From Clostridia bacterium (GTDB taxonomy: Bacteria > Bacillota > DSM-12270 > Thermacetogeniales > Thermacetogeniaceae): a stretch of DNA of 56,718 nt. Made by a program: the position numbers and the translations under genes. How positions within the stretch are numbered: the first letter of the stretch is position 1; every line of letters begins with the position of its first letter. Location of the stretch: assembly GCA_902812385.1 (NCBI GenBank), contig CADDZD010000007.1, positions 1-56,718 of the forward strand. The letters run 5' to 3'. Positions 47,405-55,770 of this stretch are shown here, in pieces. The notes under the pieces were generated by a model. That model made no database searches. It had not been told where the DNA came from and was given only the letters and a program-made list of their open reading frames with translations.

Positions 47405-48676
47405 TTACAAAGAGGACTGGCCGGCAGCCATGCACCCTTTTGAGTAGAGGGGATAACGCTCACAAAGCTTTCGAACCAGAGCACGGGCCTCATCTCTGGC
47501 ATTTTCTTGCGTTAAAGTAATATTGATGATGTAGGCAACTTGTTTCATCGCCTCACCATCAAAGCCCCGCGTGGTCACTGCCGGAGTGCCAATCCGGATT
47601 CCGCTTGTAATAAGGGGACTTTCTGGATCAAAGGGCACCGCATTTTTGTTGACGGTGACACCGACCCCATCCAGACGCTCCTCGGCTTCCTTACCGGTGA
47701 TATTCTTGTTGCGAAGATCGACCAGCATCAGGTGGTTGTCAGTCCCTCCCGAGACAAGCTGGAACCCGTATTCAATCAACTTCTGTGCCAGGGTCCTGGC
47801 GTTGGCAATCACGTTCTTCTGGTATGTCACAAATTCCGGCTGGAGCGCCTCTTTCAATGCCACTGCCTTAGCCGCAATTACGTGCATCAGCGGGCCACCC
47901 TGGATTCCGGGGAAAACAGCCTTGTCTATGGCGGCAGCATATTTTTGCCGGCAGAGAATCATCCCGCCGCGCGGTCCCCTTAGGGTCTTATGGGTGGTAG
48001 TGGTCACAAAATCCGCGTATGGTACAGGGGATGGGTGTAACCCGGCAGCAACCAGACCCGCGATATGAGCCATATCCACCATCAGGAACGCTCCTACCCT
48101 GTCTGCAATCCGCCGGAACACCGAAAAATCGATAATTCTGGGATAGGCGCTGGCTCCGGCCACGATCATAGTGGGGCGGCGCTCCACAGCCAGTCTTGCA
48201 ACTTCGTCGTAATCGATTGTCCCGGTCTCCCGGGAAACGCCGTAATGGATAAAACGAAAGTATTTTCCGGAGATATTGACCGGGCTGCCATGGGTAAGGT
48301 GCCCACCGTGGGCCAGGTTCATGCCCAAAACGGTATCCCCGGGTTTCAACACGGCAAAATAAACGGCGGTGTTGGCCTGGGCTCCGGAATGTGGCTGAAC
48401 ATTGACATGGTCCGCTCCAAAAAGCCGTTTGGCCCTCTGGCGCGCCAGTTCCTCAACCTTATCAACGAATTCGCACCCTCCGTAATAGCGCTTGCCGGGA
48501 TAACCCTCCGCGTATTTATTGGTTAAGACGGTCCCCATAGCCTCCATTACGGCCGGACTCGCAAAGTTTTCCGAAGCAATAAGCTCTATCTTGTTGTTCT
48601 GTCTTTGGAGTTCCTGGCGGATGAGAGCTCCTATCTCTTCATCCACTTGATCAAGATGTTCCAGTTGTTCTAACAT
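47405..48676 (-). CDS. glyA: Serine hydroxymethyltransferase
   Basis: This 423-residue SHMT has the fold-type-I pattern: [31 protein letters not shown], the PLP-lysine region [14 protein letters not shown] and [17 protein letters not shown]. It interconverts glycine plus methylene-tetrahydrofolate and serine. As first gene of the purine operon it is a logical exit for glycine and one-carbon units from purine and, possibly, methyl groups. I chose ATG at 48676, 9 nt after GGAG. A -24/-12 promoter lies at 48727-48742. Confidence 0.95.
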
Positions 48677-48726
48677 GAGAAACAACTCCGAATTGGTTTT
48701 TTGGCAATTTCAGAACGAAAATTGCT

Positions 48727-48949: not shown

Positions 48950-48982
48950 TATCATTATGATAAATTTATTATCTTTATGATA
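48950..48982. promoter_or_regulatory. Further TATCA-N3-TGATA dyads upstream of the glyA promoter
   Basis: TATCATTATGATA at 48950-48962 is a perfect dyad. TATCTTTATGATA at 48970-48982 has one mismatch and overlaps the stop codon of the activator gene. With 48795-48807 this makes three sites upstream of one promoter. Confidence 0.5.
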
Positions 48983-50759
48983 TATTCTCACTGGTTATCC
49001 CATAGCGCGCTATCTTACGGTAAAGGGTGGCTATACCAATTCCCAGGGCTTTCGCCGCTTTTTCCTTCCCCTCTACTGTGGTTCCAAATTCCCGCAGGCA
49101 ACGCCGAATCATCTCCCGTTCTATGGACTCGAGATTATACACTCCCCCCTCGTCTCCACCTTGAGCTTCCCTGATTTTTGCTGGTAGATGTTCCACGTCC
49201 AGGCAGGTGCCCGAAGCAATATTCATGGCGTACTCAATGACATTCTGCAACTCCCTTACATTGCCCGGCCACGAGTATTCCCACAACTTTTTGCGAAACG
49301 AATCCGACATTGTTTGAACGTTCTTATTTAACTGCTGGTTGTAGACCTGAATGAAATGTTCACACAGACTCTCCAGGTCCTCTTTCCTTTCACGCAAAGG
49401 AGCGATGGCCATGGGAATCACGTTGATCCTGTAGTAAAGATCCTGGCGGAATTCCCCCTGGGCAATCATTTGCTCCAGGTCGCGATGCGTGGCGGCAATC
49501 ACCCGAACGTCAACCGGAATGGGATTGAGCCCTCCTATGCGTTCGATCTGTCTTTCCTGCAGCACCCGTAAAATTTTTGCCTGTAAAAACAGCGGCATGT
49601 CTCCGATCTCATCCAGGAAAAGGGTGCCGTGGTTTGCCAGCTCAATCTTTCCCAGTTTTCCCCCCTTCCGGGCACCTGTAAAAGCTCCGTCTTCGTATCC
49701 AAACAACTCGCTTTCCAGAAGCGCTTCAGGAATAGCGGTACAATTAATCGCCACGAAGGGAGCATGTCGCCGGGGGCTCAGGTTATGAATCGCTCTGGCC
49801 AGCATTTCCTTGCCTGTTCCGCTCTCTCCCCTGATGAGGACGGTTGAATTGCTCGAAGCAATGATTTTTGCCCGTTCGCGAAGCTGGCGAACGGTTTCAC
49901 TCACTCCCAGGATATCGTCAACAGTATAACTGGCTTCATGTGTCGAAAAGCGGTTGACTATACGGCTGATTTCGGCGATCTGGCTCAAAGTAATAACAAT
50001 GTTTCTCTCACCCGTTTCGGTTAAAATAGGGCGGGCACGCAGGACCAGCTGTAACTGGTTCTGCCTCGGGCCTACCCGGACCTCACGCTCTAATATTTCT
50101 CCACCGTCTTTAACGGCATTTAAAATCTCTCCCGCAATCTTATGACCTAATAAGACATCAAGGGATGCGCCGGGCAACGAAATGCTGTTACGAAACAAAT
50201 GCCGGGCCACCTGATTGTAATGAAGCAATTTCCCCTTTACATCAACGGTCAGCAGCCCTTCTTCCAAACAGTCGATAATGGAGTTGAGATAGCGGTTAGA
50301 AGAAACCAGGCCATTTAAGAATTCGCGTTCCTTGAGTTTAAGGGCAATGGTTTCGGCCATTTTACCCAGAAAGGCAAGATAGGAATCTTTGCTCTCCTTC
50401 ATCATTTCAGCCTTGACCTGCGTAAAGCAGAGCAGCCCGATCACTCCAACCGTCTGAGCATTTAGATTAATGGGATAAGCAATCTCGTATTTTTCCGAGC
50501 AGCGGCCCCTTAGCCGGCAGGGCATGCACAGTTCGTGCCGTCCCGGGTTCTCGATCACGATTTCATGACCGGTGCGCAAAACCTCCCGATAAACAAAGCC
50601 CTGCCGGTTCATAGAGCTGCCGGTGCTGTTGCGATAGATACCGGTACCCGCTACCCGGATCAGGTTATTATCCGCGATCTCCACATCAATCTTCAAAACC
50701 GTGGCAATCGCTTCGGCAATCTGCTGGGCGTATTCCTGAATTTCCATTAACTCACTCAC
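48975..50759 (-). CDS. YgeV-like sigma-54-dependent activator
   Basis: This 594-residue enhancer-binding protein has four parts. An N-terminal sensory domain (about residues 1-135) carries the Cys group [14 protein letters not shown]-like segment follows (about 150-270, with [20 protein letters not shown]). The AAA+ domain has Walker A GESGTGKE, the sigma-54 contact loop GAFTGA and Walker [13 protein letters not shown]-terminal Fis-type helix-turn-helix ends it ([17 protein letters not shown]). The layout is that of E. coli YgeV, encoded beside ygeW. I chose GTG at 50759, 8 nt from GGGAGG; ATG at 50765 is too close. It lies just upstream of a -24/-12 promoter with dyad sites, its likely target. 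Confidence 0.88.
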
Positions 50760-50969
50760 GTCCATAACCTCCCGTCTGGAGTCTATCCGGCCTTTTTCCC
50801 TTACGGCAGGATACACGATCACGGGCATTTTCAAACAGAGATTTTCTCCGCCGGCCGTTCCGAAACCTTTTTAATTTTTTCTGCCATATTATATAAAAAA
50901 CGGCTACAAAGGCCTGGCGGATGCTCTGGGGATCAGGTGCGCGGGATTGGCCCGTCCTGTTACGGCCAT

Positions 50970-52013
50970 CTAATGGCAATCCGGGCAGGTGAACCGGCCA
51001 TCCCGGTCGGGGATCAAGCAGCGTGCAGCCTGCCCGCAGATCGGGCAGGGAGGAGGATCAACCTCTTCGGTAACAGGATTATACACCAGTGTCTGCTCCA
51101 AGATCTTTTTCTTATGCTGAATTTTGACCCTGGCAAAAACGCATGGCAGGTGGTATGCCACCAGGTGGTCCAGCCTCAAATCGATATCAACCTGATAACG
51201 CCCCCGCGTATCGTCGATACGGCGGCGCCGGTCTTCCATCGTCGCAGCCAGTTGCTTCTCCAGTCGCTCTTTTCTGGCCGGGTCAATTGTGGTCCTTAGT
51301 TTACGCCTTATTTCTGCTTCGGTACTCTCGTAGTAGCCGCACACCTTGGCAAGTTCCTTCTCTTGCAGTTTGGCAGCCTCTTTGCAAAGAGGTACAGCCC
51401 TTTCCCGGACCAGTTTTTCTACTTCCCGGCAGGCCACCTGATACAGGCAACTCAGGGGAGACAGCGGTGCCGAGGCAATCCGGTAATCAGGCTGCTCTTG
51501 AAAAAAGAGCGAATTGACCTGCTTTTCGAAACCCTGCGTGGCTATCGCCTGGTAACCATCCACAATAACAGGGAGTATTTCCTCTGTTTTTTCAAAGGAG
51601 CGGAAAATGCCTCTGAAATAAAAGCCATAAAAAATATTTTCTGCCACCCAGTGGGTGTCAAGCCGGGGAGGACGACACTGCAGGTAATCGATCTGGTCGT
51701 GAATCTTCTGCTCCAGGGAGCGTGGCGCTGAAGGGAGTTCACCGGACCAGTACAACACTGTTTGCTTGCCGTAATCTGCCGCTAAACGCACGATCATATC
51801 GAGCAGGGAACTACCATGAGTAATAAAAATACTACCCGGCGTCTCCTGCGCCACTTCATAATCAAAGGCCAGGAGCATCTCCTCTCTCCCGAAAACAGGC
51901 ACCAGAGACTCCGGCAGGAGAACCTCAGCCAGGGCATAACCCGGCTGTTCGACCACCGCCCCCACCCGCTCCAAATAAGCAACAACAAAATCGGACACTG
52001 AACTATCATTCAT
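50970..52013 (-). CDS. Zinc-ribbon protein paired with a SNF2 helicase, unknown function
   Basis: This 347-residue protein has no recognised name. It has a central charged, probably coiled-coil stretch (about residues 205-270) and a C-terminal zinc-ribbon-like CPICGQAARC with TCPDCH. The ATG at 52013 lies inside the end of the helicase gene (8-nt overlap), with GGGGAG upstream, so the two are co-translated. It is probably an adaptor or nucleic-acid-binding partner of the helicase. Nothing links it to purine breakdown. Confidence 0.7.
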   Translation of the reverse strand: MNDSSVSDFVVAYLERVGAVVEQPGYALAEVLLPESLVPVFGREEMLLAFDYEVAQETPGSIFITHGSSLLDMIVRLAADYGKQTVLYWSGELPSAPRSLEQKIHDQIDYLQCRPPRLDTHWVAENIFYGFYFRGIFRSFEKTEEILPVIVDGYQAIATQGFEKQVNSLFFQEQPDYRIASAPLSPLSCLYQVACREVEKLVRERAVPLCKEAAKLQEKELAKVCGYYESTEAEIRRKLRTTIDPARKERLEKQLAATMEDRRRRIDDTRGRYQVDIDLRLDHLVAYHLPCVFARVKIQHKKKILEQTLVYNPVTEEVDPPPCPICGQAARCLIPDRDGRFTCPDCH

Positions 52014-53907
52014 CTGGCAGCAACTCCCCCAGCAAGCGCTCATCCAGCTCTTTGACCGCCTGATAATGTTTTTTCGCCTCGATTAATTGCTCACCCAGGT
52101 GATCCAGGCGCCGGCGTAGATCTGTCTCATCTGTGGCCTGTGCCCAGATATCCATCACCAGCTCTTCAAAATCCTTCTTCTGATCCAGGTTGCCCAGGAT
52201 CATGTCCAATTCTCCGACTACAAGCTGGAACATGTTGATTTTGGCGTCCAGCAATTCCAAAATATATGCCTCAACTGTGCCTGCCGCCGATAAATTGAAT
52301 ATCCGGACATCACGTTCCTGCCCCAGCCTGTGAATCCTGCCGATCCGCTGTTCAATGCGCATGGGATTCCATGGCAAATCGTAGTTAACCAGATGCGAAC
52401 AAAACTGGAGATTACGCCCCTCGCTGCCCGTCTCCGTCGAAACCAGGATCCGGGCATCACTGGCAAATAATCGCACCTGCTCCTCCTTTTCCTGGCGGCG
52501 CATGTTGCCGTGCAACTCGGCGACGGAGAAACCGTTCTCTCGCAGCCACCTGGCGAGGAACGCCTGGGTTTCTAAATAGCAGGTAAAAATAATCACCTTT
52601 TCATCGAACTGTCGCAAGAGTTTGAGAAGGATCTCCGCTTTGGCCCTCCCTTTTACCTCCCGGGCCTGGGATGCCAGGGTAATCAGGACACGCCGCAATA
52701 CCTCCGGGTAAACCTGGTTTTCCGCCATTTTCTCCAGGGTAGGGATGACCGCCTCGATGCTGCTCCCGATCTCCCGCTGCAGGGTGCGCAAAATAAACTG
52801 GTTGACCCCGTCTTTCATGCCTGTTAAACCAGGAGTATAATAGCCACGCACAAAGCTGCTTAAGCGGTTATAAAAAGCCATTTCGTCATCGCTCAAAGAG
52901 AGTTCGATGATGTCGGCCCTGCGGCGGCTGCGGATGGCGCTGGTTTCACTGCGTCGGTTACGCACCATGACCTCCCGCACCAAACGCTTCAAGTCATCAG
53001 CGTTTTTCGGTTTCAGCGGGTCACCACGGGTAATATACTTCCTCTTAAATGAAGCGGCGGTTTCCAGCTGCCCCGGCTGGAGCAGGGTAATCAGGTTGAA
53101 CAGCTCTTCCAGGTCATTTTCTACCGGGGTGGCAGTAAGCAGCAGGATATACTTTTTCTTTAACTGGCTGACGAGCCGGTAGGCCTGAGTACGCCGGTTT
53201 TTCAGGTGGTGGGCTTCATCGACGATCACCATGTCGAACTCGGCAGCCAGAACCTCATCCCGGTGGGTTTCCCGCTTCGCCGTATCCAGCGAGGCAATAA
53301 TGCGCGGAAACTCCGTCCAGGGATGGGGATGTGACTTGAACGCCTGATTATCATAACTGATGAAATCCAGGTTGAATTTTGTCTGCATCTCCTGTTGCCA
53401 CTGCTCCACCAGAGATGGCGGGGTCAATACAAGGACACGGCGGACCAACCCGCGCATCAGGTATTCCATCAAGATCAGGCCGGCCTCTATGGTCTTGCCC
53501 ATCCCTACCTCGTCACACAAGAGGGCACGTCCCCGCAAGTTTTTTAGAACATGGCGGACTGTAGCGAGCTGGTAGTCCAGGGGTTCGATGCCCCGGACCA
53601 CTTTCAGGGACAACAGTGTATCGAACCCGGGGCTCAGGGAAACGGCCAGGGCCTGCCTGCGCAGGTACAAATCCGAAGCTCGGCCGTGCTTGCCTTGAGC
53701 CATTTGATCCAGGATCACCTGGTCTTCCGCCGGCGAAAAGTTTACCTGCACCACCACGCCAGGAACGATCTCCAGCCTGCTGTGCTCCGGAGTGGCGAGC
53801 ATATTCCGGGAAGATGCCGTCGAATTTTCGGGCGACGCCACCCCTTGCCGGGCTCCGGGTATTTCCTCATGGGTGGATAAATTCTTTTTACGACGCGGGC
53901 TCACCAT
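52006..53907 (-). CDS. SNF2/RapA-type DEAH helicase-like ATPase
   Basis: This 633-residue superfamily-2 ATPase has motif I DEVGMGKTIEAGL, motif II VIVDEAHHLKN, motif III LLTATPVEND, motif IV/V region LVSTETGSEGRNLQF and motif VI RIEQRIGRIHRLGQ. These are SNF2-family marks, with RapA/HepA-like spacing. It moves on DNA or remodels protein-DNA complexes such as RNA polymerase. The Shine-Dalgarno site is weak, so the start could be slightly different. The gene is coupled to the zinc-ribbon gene downstream. Confidence 0.88.
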   Translation of the reverse strand: MVSPRRKKNLSTHEEIPGARQGVASPENSTASSRNMLATPEHSRLEIVPGVVVQVNFSPAEDQVILDQMAQGKHGRASDLYLRRQALAVSLSPGFDTLLSLKVVRGIEPLDYQLATVRHVLKNLRGRALLCDEVGMGKTIEAGLILMEYLMRGLVRRVLVLTPPSLVEQWQQEMQTKFNLDFISYDNQAFKSHPHPWTEFPRIIASLDTAKRETHRDEVLAAEFDMVIVDEAHHLKNRRTQAYRLVSQLKKKYILLLTATPVENDLEELFNLITLLQPGQLETAASFKRKYITRGDPLKPKNADDLKRLVREVMVRNRRSETSAIRSRRRADIIELSLSDDEMAFYNRLSSFVRGYYTPGLTGMKDGVNQFILRTLQREIGSSIEAVIPTLEKMAENQVYPEVLRRVLITLASQAREVKGRAKAEILLKLLRQFDEKVIIFTCYLETQAFLARWLRENGFSVAELHGNMRRQEKEEQVRLFASDARILVSTETGSEGRNLQFCSHLVNYDLPWNPMRIEQRIGRIHRLGQERDVRIFNLSAAGTVEAYILELLDAKINMFQLVVGELDMILGNLDQKKDFEELVMDIWAQATDETDLRRRLDHLGEQLIEAKKHYQAVKELDERLLGELLPDE

Positions 53908-54241: not shown

Positions 54242-54258
54242 TGCAGTTGCGGATGTTA

Positions 54259-54465
54259 TTATGATCGAGCCTTCCCGCCGTTCTGTTCCAGATCCAGGGT
54301 GATGGGTATAAGATAGGCAAAGCTCTTGCCCGTTCCGGTTCCCGCCTCCGCCAGCAGGTTAGTCTCGTGCAGCAAGGCCCTCTCCACCATCAGGGCCATC
54401 GAGAACTGCTGCTCCCGCACCTCATAGTGAAGCAGTTTTTCGGGCGGCGTTTCCCGAAAGATTTT
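54259..54465 (-). pseudogene. Decayed DinG-type helicase fragment
   Basis: An open stretch between two stops, without a good start codon, encodes FRETPPEKLLHYEVREQQF and the Walker A segment LLAEAGTGTGKSFAYLIP. This matches the N-terminal P-loop region of DinG-family DNA helicases. The rest of the roughly 700-residue enzyme is absent, so this is a remnant. Confidence 0.7.
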
Positions 54466-54536
54466 TTATGATCCCTGGTTAGAACAAAGGCCGTCGTCAT
54501 AGCCACTGGGTAGAGGTTAATCCACGGGCACTTCAT

Positions 54537-55424
54537 TTATTGGATCGAGAACTTCATAAAACCTCCGACAGGGGTTGAGCGGATCTTTCTCTTGGCACAC
54601 AAGTAAGAAAGAAAAGCAGATATTGTTGCAAGTATCAGATAATACTGCGTCGTGTTCAAAGGCAAGGCAAACGCATCAACAATTCGTGATAAAATCTCTT
54701 CCCTGCTCTGCGGTGTTCGCACAATTTCCAGAATAAAATTAATAATTTTACAGAGCCACTCCCGGTTGCTGTTGACCGTCTCCTTTAAATTCCGGAGATG
54801 GCCTCCATGAGATAAAACAGCCTGTTCAAAACCTGCATCCCGGAGAAAATCGAGCGTTTCCAAGTGGCTACCGACATCCGCCAGGTAATGAAATTGAAAT
54901 TTTTTCATAATTTCAGGAGCAATGAGACTGTCCCCCAGGAAAGCAATCCCATCCGGAGTCACTATGCCGTTGTGACCCATGGTATGTCCCTTCAAATCAA
55001 CGACTTGAAATGCAATCCCGTCAATGAACAGCCTCCCCGCATCTAAAACGTCGGTCACCACGGAAGGAGAGGCCATCAAAAACTTATTTTTAAGGGCAGG
55101 AGGAGGATGGGCAGAATAGAGGGCAAATGGTGCAAGGATCGGGTTCTGAATGATTGGAGCATCCAGTGCGGATGCGAAGATGCGGCAACGACTCCGTTCC
55201 TGGATCAGGCGGTTGCCTGCACAGTGGTCTGCGTGGAAATGGGTATTGAAGATGCCGCGCACCCTGATTCCCCCTTCCTTTAACAGCTCCCAAAGGGTTG
55301 CGGCACTTTTCTGGCTGGAGCCCGTATCTATCAGTAAACAGGAACGGTCGTCGAAGAGATATACTCCGATGATGCTTGGACCATCAATGTAGTAAGTGTT
55401 TCCGGCCAGGCGCTGCAGTTTCAA
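54537..55424 (-). CDS. MBL-fold metallo-hydrolase under a glycine riboswitch
   Basis: This 295-residue protein of the metallo-beta-lactamase fold has the metal motif NTHFHADHCAGN, then DLKGHTMGHNG and the Asp-containing FLGDSLI. The C-terminal quarter (LSRIVDAFALPLNTTQYYL) is probably helical. Fold members hydrolyse thioesters, lactones or other esters; the substrate is unknown. The TTG start is preceded by a purine-rich site. A tandem glycine riboswitch with a terminator lies upstream, so expression should rise with glycine. Glycine is an end product of purine breakdown, which may be the link. Confidence 0.85.
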   Translation of the reverse strand: MKLQRLAGNTYYIDGPSIIGVYLFDDRSCLLIDTGSSQKSAATLWELLKEGGIRVRGIFNTHFHADHCAGNRLIQERSRCRIFASALDAPIIQNPILAPFALYSAHPPPALKNKFLMASPSVVTDVLDAGRLFIDGIAFQVVDLKGHTMGHNGIVTPDGIAFLGDSLIAPEIMKKFQFHYLADVGSHLETLDFLRDAGFEQAVLSHGGHLRNLKETVNSNREWLCKIINFILEIVRTPQSREEILSRIVDAFALPLNTTQYYLILATISAFLSYLCAKRKIRSTPVGGFMKFSIQ

Positions 55425-55479
55425 TACCCTCTTCCTACTCCCCTCAATTGTTTTTCACTTTGTGCTGTTGCGCAAAAAA

Positions 55480-55710
55480 CAGAGCATGAGAATATATAAT
55501 CCCCATGCTCTGTACCTTACCTGAGAGATTCACCCGGCAACCAGGCTTGCCCCTTCGGTGTGCCGCCACTTTCCAGAGCTAGTCGGAATACGGTCCTTCC
55601 ACCTGAAAGGTTCGTTAATATCAATATCATCGGGCATGATATCAACTTTCTTCTTCGGTATGAGGGAAATCTTTAGGCACCACCATTTCTCCCGTATTCT
55701 TCATCCACGA
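55480..55710 (-). ncRNA. Tandem glycine riboswitch with terminator platform
   Basis: On the minus strand, aptamer 2 has the conserved blocks AGCTCTGGAAAG, CACCGAAGGGGCAAGCC and GAATCTCTCAGGTAA. Upstream, a first aptamer is recognisable from GGGAGAAATGGTGG, ACCGAAGAAGAAAGTT and CTTTCAGGTGGAAGGACCG. A terminator stem follows: ACAGAGCATG, loop, CATGCTCTGT and six Ts (55474-55514). In this class glycine usually prevents terminator formation, so the MBL gene downstream would be switched on by glycine. Confidence 0.85.
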
Positions 55711-55740
55711 TTCTATAAATTGTCAGCTGTTCTTAGGCGT

Positions 55741-55770
55741 ATTATATGGCAACAAAAAGAAATCTGTCAA
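55741..55770 (-). promoter_or_regulatory. Sigma-70-type promoter for the glycine riboswitch transcript
   Basis: On the minus strand TTGACA, 18 nt, TATAAT: both hexamers are full consensus. Transcription would start near 55734, just before the first aptamer. Confidence 0.85.

Follow-up and report, generated by a model that had tools for sequence, protein, structure and literature searches.

A tandem glycine riboswitch directly precedes the gene of an MBL-fold hydrolase tied to glycine cleavage

In the 56,718-nucleotide stretch of DNA analysed here (the window), an ordinary tandem glycine riboswitch stands in an unusual place, directly before the gene of an MBL-fold hydrolase (MBL, for metallo-beta-lactamase), and its target is a conserved enzyme with ties to glycine cleavage. 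Glycine cleavage relies on four textbook proteins together with lipoylation enzymes. We consider it likely that the riboswitch is a transcriptional ON switch for the MBL gene, that the MBL protein is an accessory of glycine cleavage, and that the gcv genes have been lost from this spot (or the leader relocated to it).

Anatomy of the leader

The leader occupies 55425-55770 on the minus strand, from the start of a promoter-like site to the base before the TTG of the MBL gene. The putative promoter (TTGACA-18-TATAAT, 55741..55770, minus) agrees with the consensus at 12 of 12 positions, as a consensus match only. It is followed by glycine riboswitch aptamer 1 (55581..55704, minus; RF00504, 50.5 bits with the cut-off at 32, and E = 1.8e-7 in the Rfam scan of the entire window), by aptamer 2 (55500..55586, minus; RF00504, 46.9 bits against the cut-off of 32) and by a predicted intrinsic terminator (55479..55513, minus) made of a 15-pair stem and a T run (-22.3 kcal/mol, z -8.2). 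Aptamer 2 is absent from the whole-window Rfam list and passes the RF00504 cut-off only when scanned alone. With both adjacent aptamers above the Rfam gathering score of RF00504, the computed membership is that of a tandem riboswitch, and a chance or partial riboswitch is ruled out. This bears out the first-pass annotation, which had placed a tandem glycine riboswitch before an MBL gene and named the hydrolase as the first gene after the terminator: its interval, 55425-55770, proved exact, and on the minus strand no other ORF of at least 80 aa stands between the terminator and the MBL frame (54537..55424, minus; 295 aa, TTG start; Pfam PF00753 Lactamase_B, 68 bits against 22.7).

The aptamers are not evident from fold energies alone (z -1.8 for aptamer 1 alone, -0.05 for aptamer 2 alone and -2.45 for the whole leader, against -8.2 for the terminator stem), whereas covariance models do reveal them. 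Within a 2.6-kb scan the leader's promoter and terminator were the best of their kind, such matches being common in general (6 promoter-like sites versus 2.8 expected, and 5 terminator-like sites versus 3.5 expected). The 5' arm of the terminator includes ACAGAGC, a sequence that serves the aptamer 2 P1 stem as its 3' strand, and the terminator and the closed P1 are mutually exclusive structures. When unconstrained, the leader folds into the terminator (-80); when the 3' arm of the terminator is barred, it folds into both canonical aptamers with P1 closed (-61.6). Such a computed anatomy has the layout usual for what would be a glycine ON switch, glycine binding and the ON direction being presumed. 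Since three tRNA genes and a terminator-like hairpin (55951-55926) lie upstream, the leader appears to be a separate unit. The direct riboswitch-MBL arrangement is found about 1 kb from the contig end, in a draft assembly.

The hydrolase clade and glycine-cleavage operons

Relatives of the hydrolase were sought in the same taxonomic family, in 398 genomes drawn from the phylum and in the 63 genomes of the class of genome G251. At E<=1e-62 there were 36 loci, the window included, and gcv genes were mapped in all 36. In 32 of them, same-strand gcv, lpd or lplA genes lay upstream of the MBL gene, 27 of these linked loci having gcv genes in view and 28 having the MBL gene right after lplA. In five linked loci nothing beyond lplA, lpd or glyA is seen, and in four of the five the contig ends just upstream (G297, G443, G414 and G416). 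G442 has 6.8 kb of other genes upstream of its lplA-MBL pair, with no gcv match, and a riboswitch-led gcv operon on another contig. The MBL gene follows gcvPB in G412 and G413, where neither lpd nor lplA is matched in between, and follows lpd in G274. It begins less than 250 bases from the contig end in G445 and G447, and in G368 none of gcv, lpd and lplA is its neighbour, and the tree described below places it outside the clade. The window's own copy has no adjoining gcv gene, only the riboswitch. An orphan MBL gene with no link to glycine was also considered and is ruled out by the gcv-operon context of the relatives.

At the G442 locus (C85; L147 2307-10912) the lplA-MBL pair comes after zinc-uptake-like genes on one strand, read by eye as ABC transporter parts, a Fur-type regulator and two GTP-binding metal chaperones.

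Lower-scoring relatives had gcv genes in view in none of the 36 mapped (26 and 10 more, most of the 10 with 1.5 kb of flank), a count that leaves out two matches, G079:C34 and G338:C25. Three lower-scoring relatives (L102, L103 and L105, from G338, G203 and G079) adjoin folD, and this folD-linked second MBL paralogue forms a side branch inside the clade; because these side-branch paralogues adjoin folD, a one-carbon link is suggested. A scan of named genomes returned nine relatives, none of them close, a viral scan returned one, and the class of G094 yielded no further MBL loci. A 60-row tree, from which L067 was dropped for its long branch and in which L060 has a 5'-overlong ORF, split 38 rows (34 clade members, three folD-linked relatives and the window) from the 22 others at 99/90, and grouped the window with G015 (95/81) and then with a paralogue on contig C3 of the window's own genome (100/99). 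This second MBL, 58% identical, closes a gcv operon that is headed by a riboswitch. By sequence, the window's MBL is thereby assigned to a clade of glycine-cleavage operon genes. As its close relatives mostly end a glycine-breakdown operon, the hydrolase is probably a helper, so far unstudied, of glycine breakdown.

The same operons invite another reading, in which the MBL serves lipoate metabolism and not glycine cleavage as such, for example by freeing lipoate from lipoyl-lysine for the neighbouring LplA ligase. The 28 linked loci (of 32) in which lplA immediately precedes the MBL gene speak for it, as does the G442 pair, which stands apart from the gcv operon of that genome. We nevertheless think it unlikely, given the genomes in which the MBL gene follows gcvPB or lpd (G412 and G413, and G274), the three side-branch members that adjoin folD, and a riboswitch of a class that senses glycine.

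Computed co-occurrence agreed with a role in glycine cleavage. Canonical gcvPB was present in 40 of the 63 genomes of the class of G251 (best matches 3e-189 to 1e-283), and the MBL (E<=1e-62) was found in 31 of these 40 genomes versus none of the 23 without canonical gcvPB, two of which have divergent gcvPB only (Fisher p 4e-10, with related species that are not independent and several genomes that are incomplete). Since no MBL match was found in the other 9 of the 40 canonical-gcvPB genomes of this class, the MBL is dispensable.

Distribution of the riboswitch link

A glycine riboswitch heads the MBL-bearing gcv operon in G000:C3 (the paralogue's operon) and in G015:C8. In another class, in G251 and G179, it lies directly before folD (C11:33117-33225 and C53:18296-18402, respectively), at the head of folD-gcvT-...-lplA-MBL. 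None of the 31 other MBL loci scanned (a set that excludes L101 and L159) reaches the Rfam glycine riboswitch cut-off; several of these stretches stop short of the operon start, and those of G251 and G179 end just before the leader. By whole genome, a glycine riboswitch was present somewhere in 13 of 33 searched. Among the loci examined, only the window has the riboswitch directly before the MBL gene. The comparative search for riboswitches before this MBL family, proposed in the first-pass annotation, gave riboswitch-headed MBL-bearing operons in G000:C3, G015, G251 and G179, and the direct arrangement in the window only. The suggestion that the hydrolase may act in glycine or one-carbon handling gains support from context (the ends of gcv-lpd-lplA operons, the co-occurrence with gcvPB and the folD side branch). 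The view that the riboswitch has an unusual kind of target does not: the MBL clade consists of glycine-cleavage operon genes, and it is the gcv partners that are missing at this spot.

Locus history and related tandem units

The surroundings of the MBL gene were compared with those in its nearest relatives. In G015:C8 the order is riboswitch-gcvT-gcvH-gcvPA-gcvPB-lpd-lplA-MBL-sigma54-glyA. In the window it is riboswitch-MBL-(helicase relic, SNF2 helicase, second ORF)-sigma54-glyA, with the sigma-54 activator at 48975..50834 (minus; matched best in NCBIfam by PrdR, at 400.8 bits where the cut-off is 795) and glyA, for serine hydroxymethyltransferase, at 47405..48685 (minus; NF000586 above cut-off), following the sigma-54 activator as in G015. 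In G000:C3 it is glyA-riboswitch-gcvT-gcvH-gcvPA-gcvPB-lpd-lplA-TIGR01440-sdaAB-sdaAA-(sigma54 relic)-MBL. The window's glyA region adjoins genes read by eye as purine catabolism. The simplest account of the window locus that we infer from these orders is that gcv genes once separating the leader from the MBL gene have been lost, with leader relocation as the alternative.

Several features of the neighbourhood are recorded here in their own right. The helicase relic, DinG-like by eye (EAGTGTGKSFAYLIPI), lies at 54250-54540 (minus), just after the MBL gene, and is followed by the SNF2 helicase ORF (52006-53907), whose best curated match, DISARM DrmD, is below cut-off. The sigma-54 activator is found beside glyA and a threonine-synthase-like gene. 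A relic of the same activator (L034 2456-2787), with 77-87% identity to window 48975-50834, lies between sdaAA and the MBL paralogue.

Glycine riboswitches occurred in 9 of the 20 genomes of the same taxonomic family, order- and class-level searches having returned the same 20. A pattern search of the fetched loci gave 12 different tandem units, of which 11 were aligned (L049 was excluded for an internal insertion); the ten units compared with the window's come from the same family, four of them from the window's own genome. The consensus of the 11 units has 52 pairs, 21 of them changed on both sides in some sequence, and the conserved aptamer pairing is supported by this covariation among relatives. 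The window unit has no broken P1 or P3a pair and one broken P2 pair, in aptamer 1; this aptamer also has an 8-base P3b insert and two loop positions unlike all ten compared units. Identity of the window riboswitch was 73% to that of G015 and 68-78% across all ten units, a range that does not mark a G015-like leader as its source.

Leaders of this kind stand before gcvT in G000 (C3, C17 and C21), G010, G012, G014, G015:C8, G016 and G019. Others, judged by eye where no profile named the gene, lead a divergent gcvP operon (the second site of G000:C21) and a glycine-reductase-like operon (G017), and one lies before a thioredoxin-reductase-like gene, again by eye (G015:C296). The tandem leader at G013:C105:2822-3046 (L046, L113 1421-2839) directly precedes a PocR-domain AraC-type regulator; in G014 an ORF resembling this regulator comes after lplA (L117 10779-11999). 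Tandem units in series occur at G000:C21:32674-32781 and C25:14-380 (L036, L037) and at G014:C23:25204-25729 (L044, L048), C25 and G014 having two units each. The G000:C21 unit leads divergent gcvPA and gcvPB together with genes for an NAD-kinase-like and a RiPP-type radical SAM protein and with a permease-like ORF (L036 9928-17906), and divergent gcvPB (about 40% identity) is found near riboswitches also in G442:C77, G436:C128 and G410:C182. The draft genome G000 has three riboswitch-led gcv operons, on contigs C3, C17 and C21 (L034, L035 and L036); the proteins of the C17 and C21 operons are 82-95% identical to those of C3, and only C3 among the three contigs has an MBL match.

The comparison with G015 also lends itself to a more sceptical interpretation, namely that the locus is a deletion scar, loss of the gcv genes having left the riboswitch next to the MBL gene by chance, with no selected regulation. 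Consistently with it, G015 has riboswitch-gcv-MBL-sigma54-glyA while in the window gcv is absent and the helicase relic and the SNF2 helicase separate MBL from the sigma-54 gene, and aptamer 1 has its odd bases. We regard such a scar as quite improbable, because the promoter match, both aptamers, the terminator and the MBL frame are all intact and no P1 or P3a pair of the unit is broken.

The two aptamer 1 loop bases unlike those of the ten relatives could equally be taken as the mark of a variant riboswitch of the glycine class with another ligand, and RF03166, a two-aptamer model of a variant, does span both aptamers (55708-55506). Its score (58.3 bits) misses the gathering score of 110, however, both aptamers pass the ordinary glycine cut-off, and the clade of the target has ties to glycine cleavage, all of which make another ligand very improbable.

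The hydrolase protein

The MBL is a full-length protein of its fold, and all 35 of the clade members aligned share its metal ligands (H62, H64, D66, H67, H147, D165 and H206, that is, HxHxDH plus a later His, Asp and His). Among solved structures the nearest by sequence are weak matches (best E 1.1e-6). An AlphaFold2 model from six sequences reached a pLDDT of 88.7, and a single-sequence fold was poor (42.4). The six-sequence model has the MBL fold with a helical C-terminal part, like TTHA1429 (2zo4), LACTB2 (4ad9), PqsE and the Burkholderia structures 5u8o, 5i0p and 6ao1, and the fold match is near full length (VIA Z 26.2 for 5u8o, 25.5 for 2zo4, 22.7 for 4ad9 and about 22 for PqsE). Identity to these solved structures is only 15-20%, from which no common function can be inferred, and the structural matches point to no substrate. 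PqsE has thioesterase activity. Our leading guess as to substrate is a by-product of lipoyl-H-protein or folate chemistry, either a thioester or a formyl compound, which the enzyme would hydrolyse; this guess is tentative and on balance doubtful; S-formylmycothiol offers a precedent, which we do not count as evidence.

The weak profile matches to antibiotic beta-lactamases and to standard glyoxalase II count for little, since the curated cut-offs were missed in all of the best 25 of 32 NCBIfam rows (38.5 bits against 240 for the subclass B3 metallo-beta-lactamase model NF033105, and 49.5 against 200.8 for glyoxalase II, TIGR03413 / GSH_gloB) and the operon context is also against both, leaving either identity extremely improbable.

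Proposed mechanism and significance

In the mechanism that we propose, RNA polymerase would start at the promoter at 55770-55741 and make aptamers 1 and 2. With glycine bound, the aptamer 2 P1 stem (GCUCUG/CAGAGC) would stay closed and deny the terminator its 5' arm, allowing read-through into the MBL gene, and without glycine the terminator would form; promoter use, glycine binding and the ON direction are what we infer from the leader. The MBL enzyme would be an accessory of the glycine cleavage system, the clade members mostly ending gcvT-H-PA-PB-lpd-lplA operons, and the loss of the gcv genes here, or a move of the leader, would have brought the leader against the MBL gene. A bolder proposal extends this to the whole clade, as an undescribed, dedicated and glycine-induced glycine cleavage accessory that has its own riboswitch here and that, for example, clears S-formyl groups or dead-end thioesters from the dihydrolipoyl arm of H-protein, or repairs formyl-folate; we find it plausible, though we lean slightly against it.

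In three families of one phylum the MBL is frequently the last gene of the operon; it also goes together with gcvPB and can have a glycine sensor of its own. This pattern points to a missing step of glycine cleavage, for instance one that repairs, detoxifies or recycles a cofactor. An arrangement with the riboswitch alone splits the hydrolase from the gcv genes, so that the glycine link could be tested with one short RNA and one protein. In the literature searched, with all bioRxiv preprints and most subscription papers outside the search, there was no description of this conserved hydrolase and no report of a glycine riboswitch or glycine cleavage paired with a metallo-beta-lactamase or MBL protein, and papers joining the glycine cleavage system, lipoate-protein ligase and metallo-beta-lactamase were, by their titles, none about this operon.

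Comparison with known systems

According to PMC6944388, glycine riboswitch contexts include gcv and transport, and context predicts ON or OFF switching. A gcvT-gcvH-gcvPA-gcvPB-lpd-lplA operon appears for Thermacetogenium phaeum in PMC12674515, in whose text the term 'lactamase' was not found, and the order given there is that of G000:C3, G015 and many MBL-bearing operons. The gcv operon of G019 closes with sdaAB-sdaAA, and no MBL match is in view there. The model of the glycine-GGAnGA riboswitch (RF03166) aligns over both window aptamers and falls below its gathering score (58.3 against 110). Compared with the gcv type of RF00504, the window leader differs in that its first gene encodes an MBL hydrolase and not gcvT, and in the two loop bases and the P3b insert of aptamer 1. 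It resembles that type in having two aptamers above the cut-off, a terminator that overlaps aptamer 2 P1 and a target tied to glycine cleavage.
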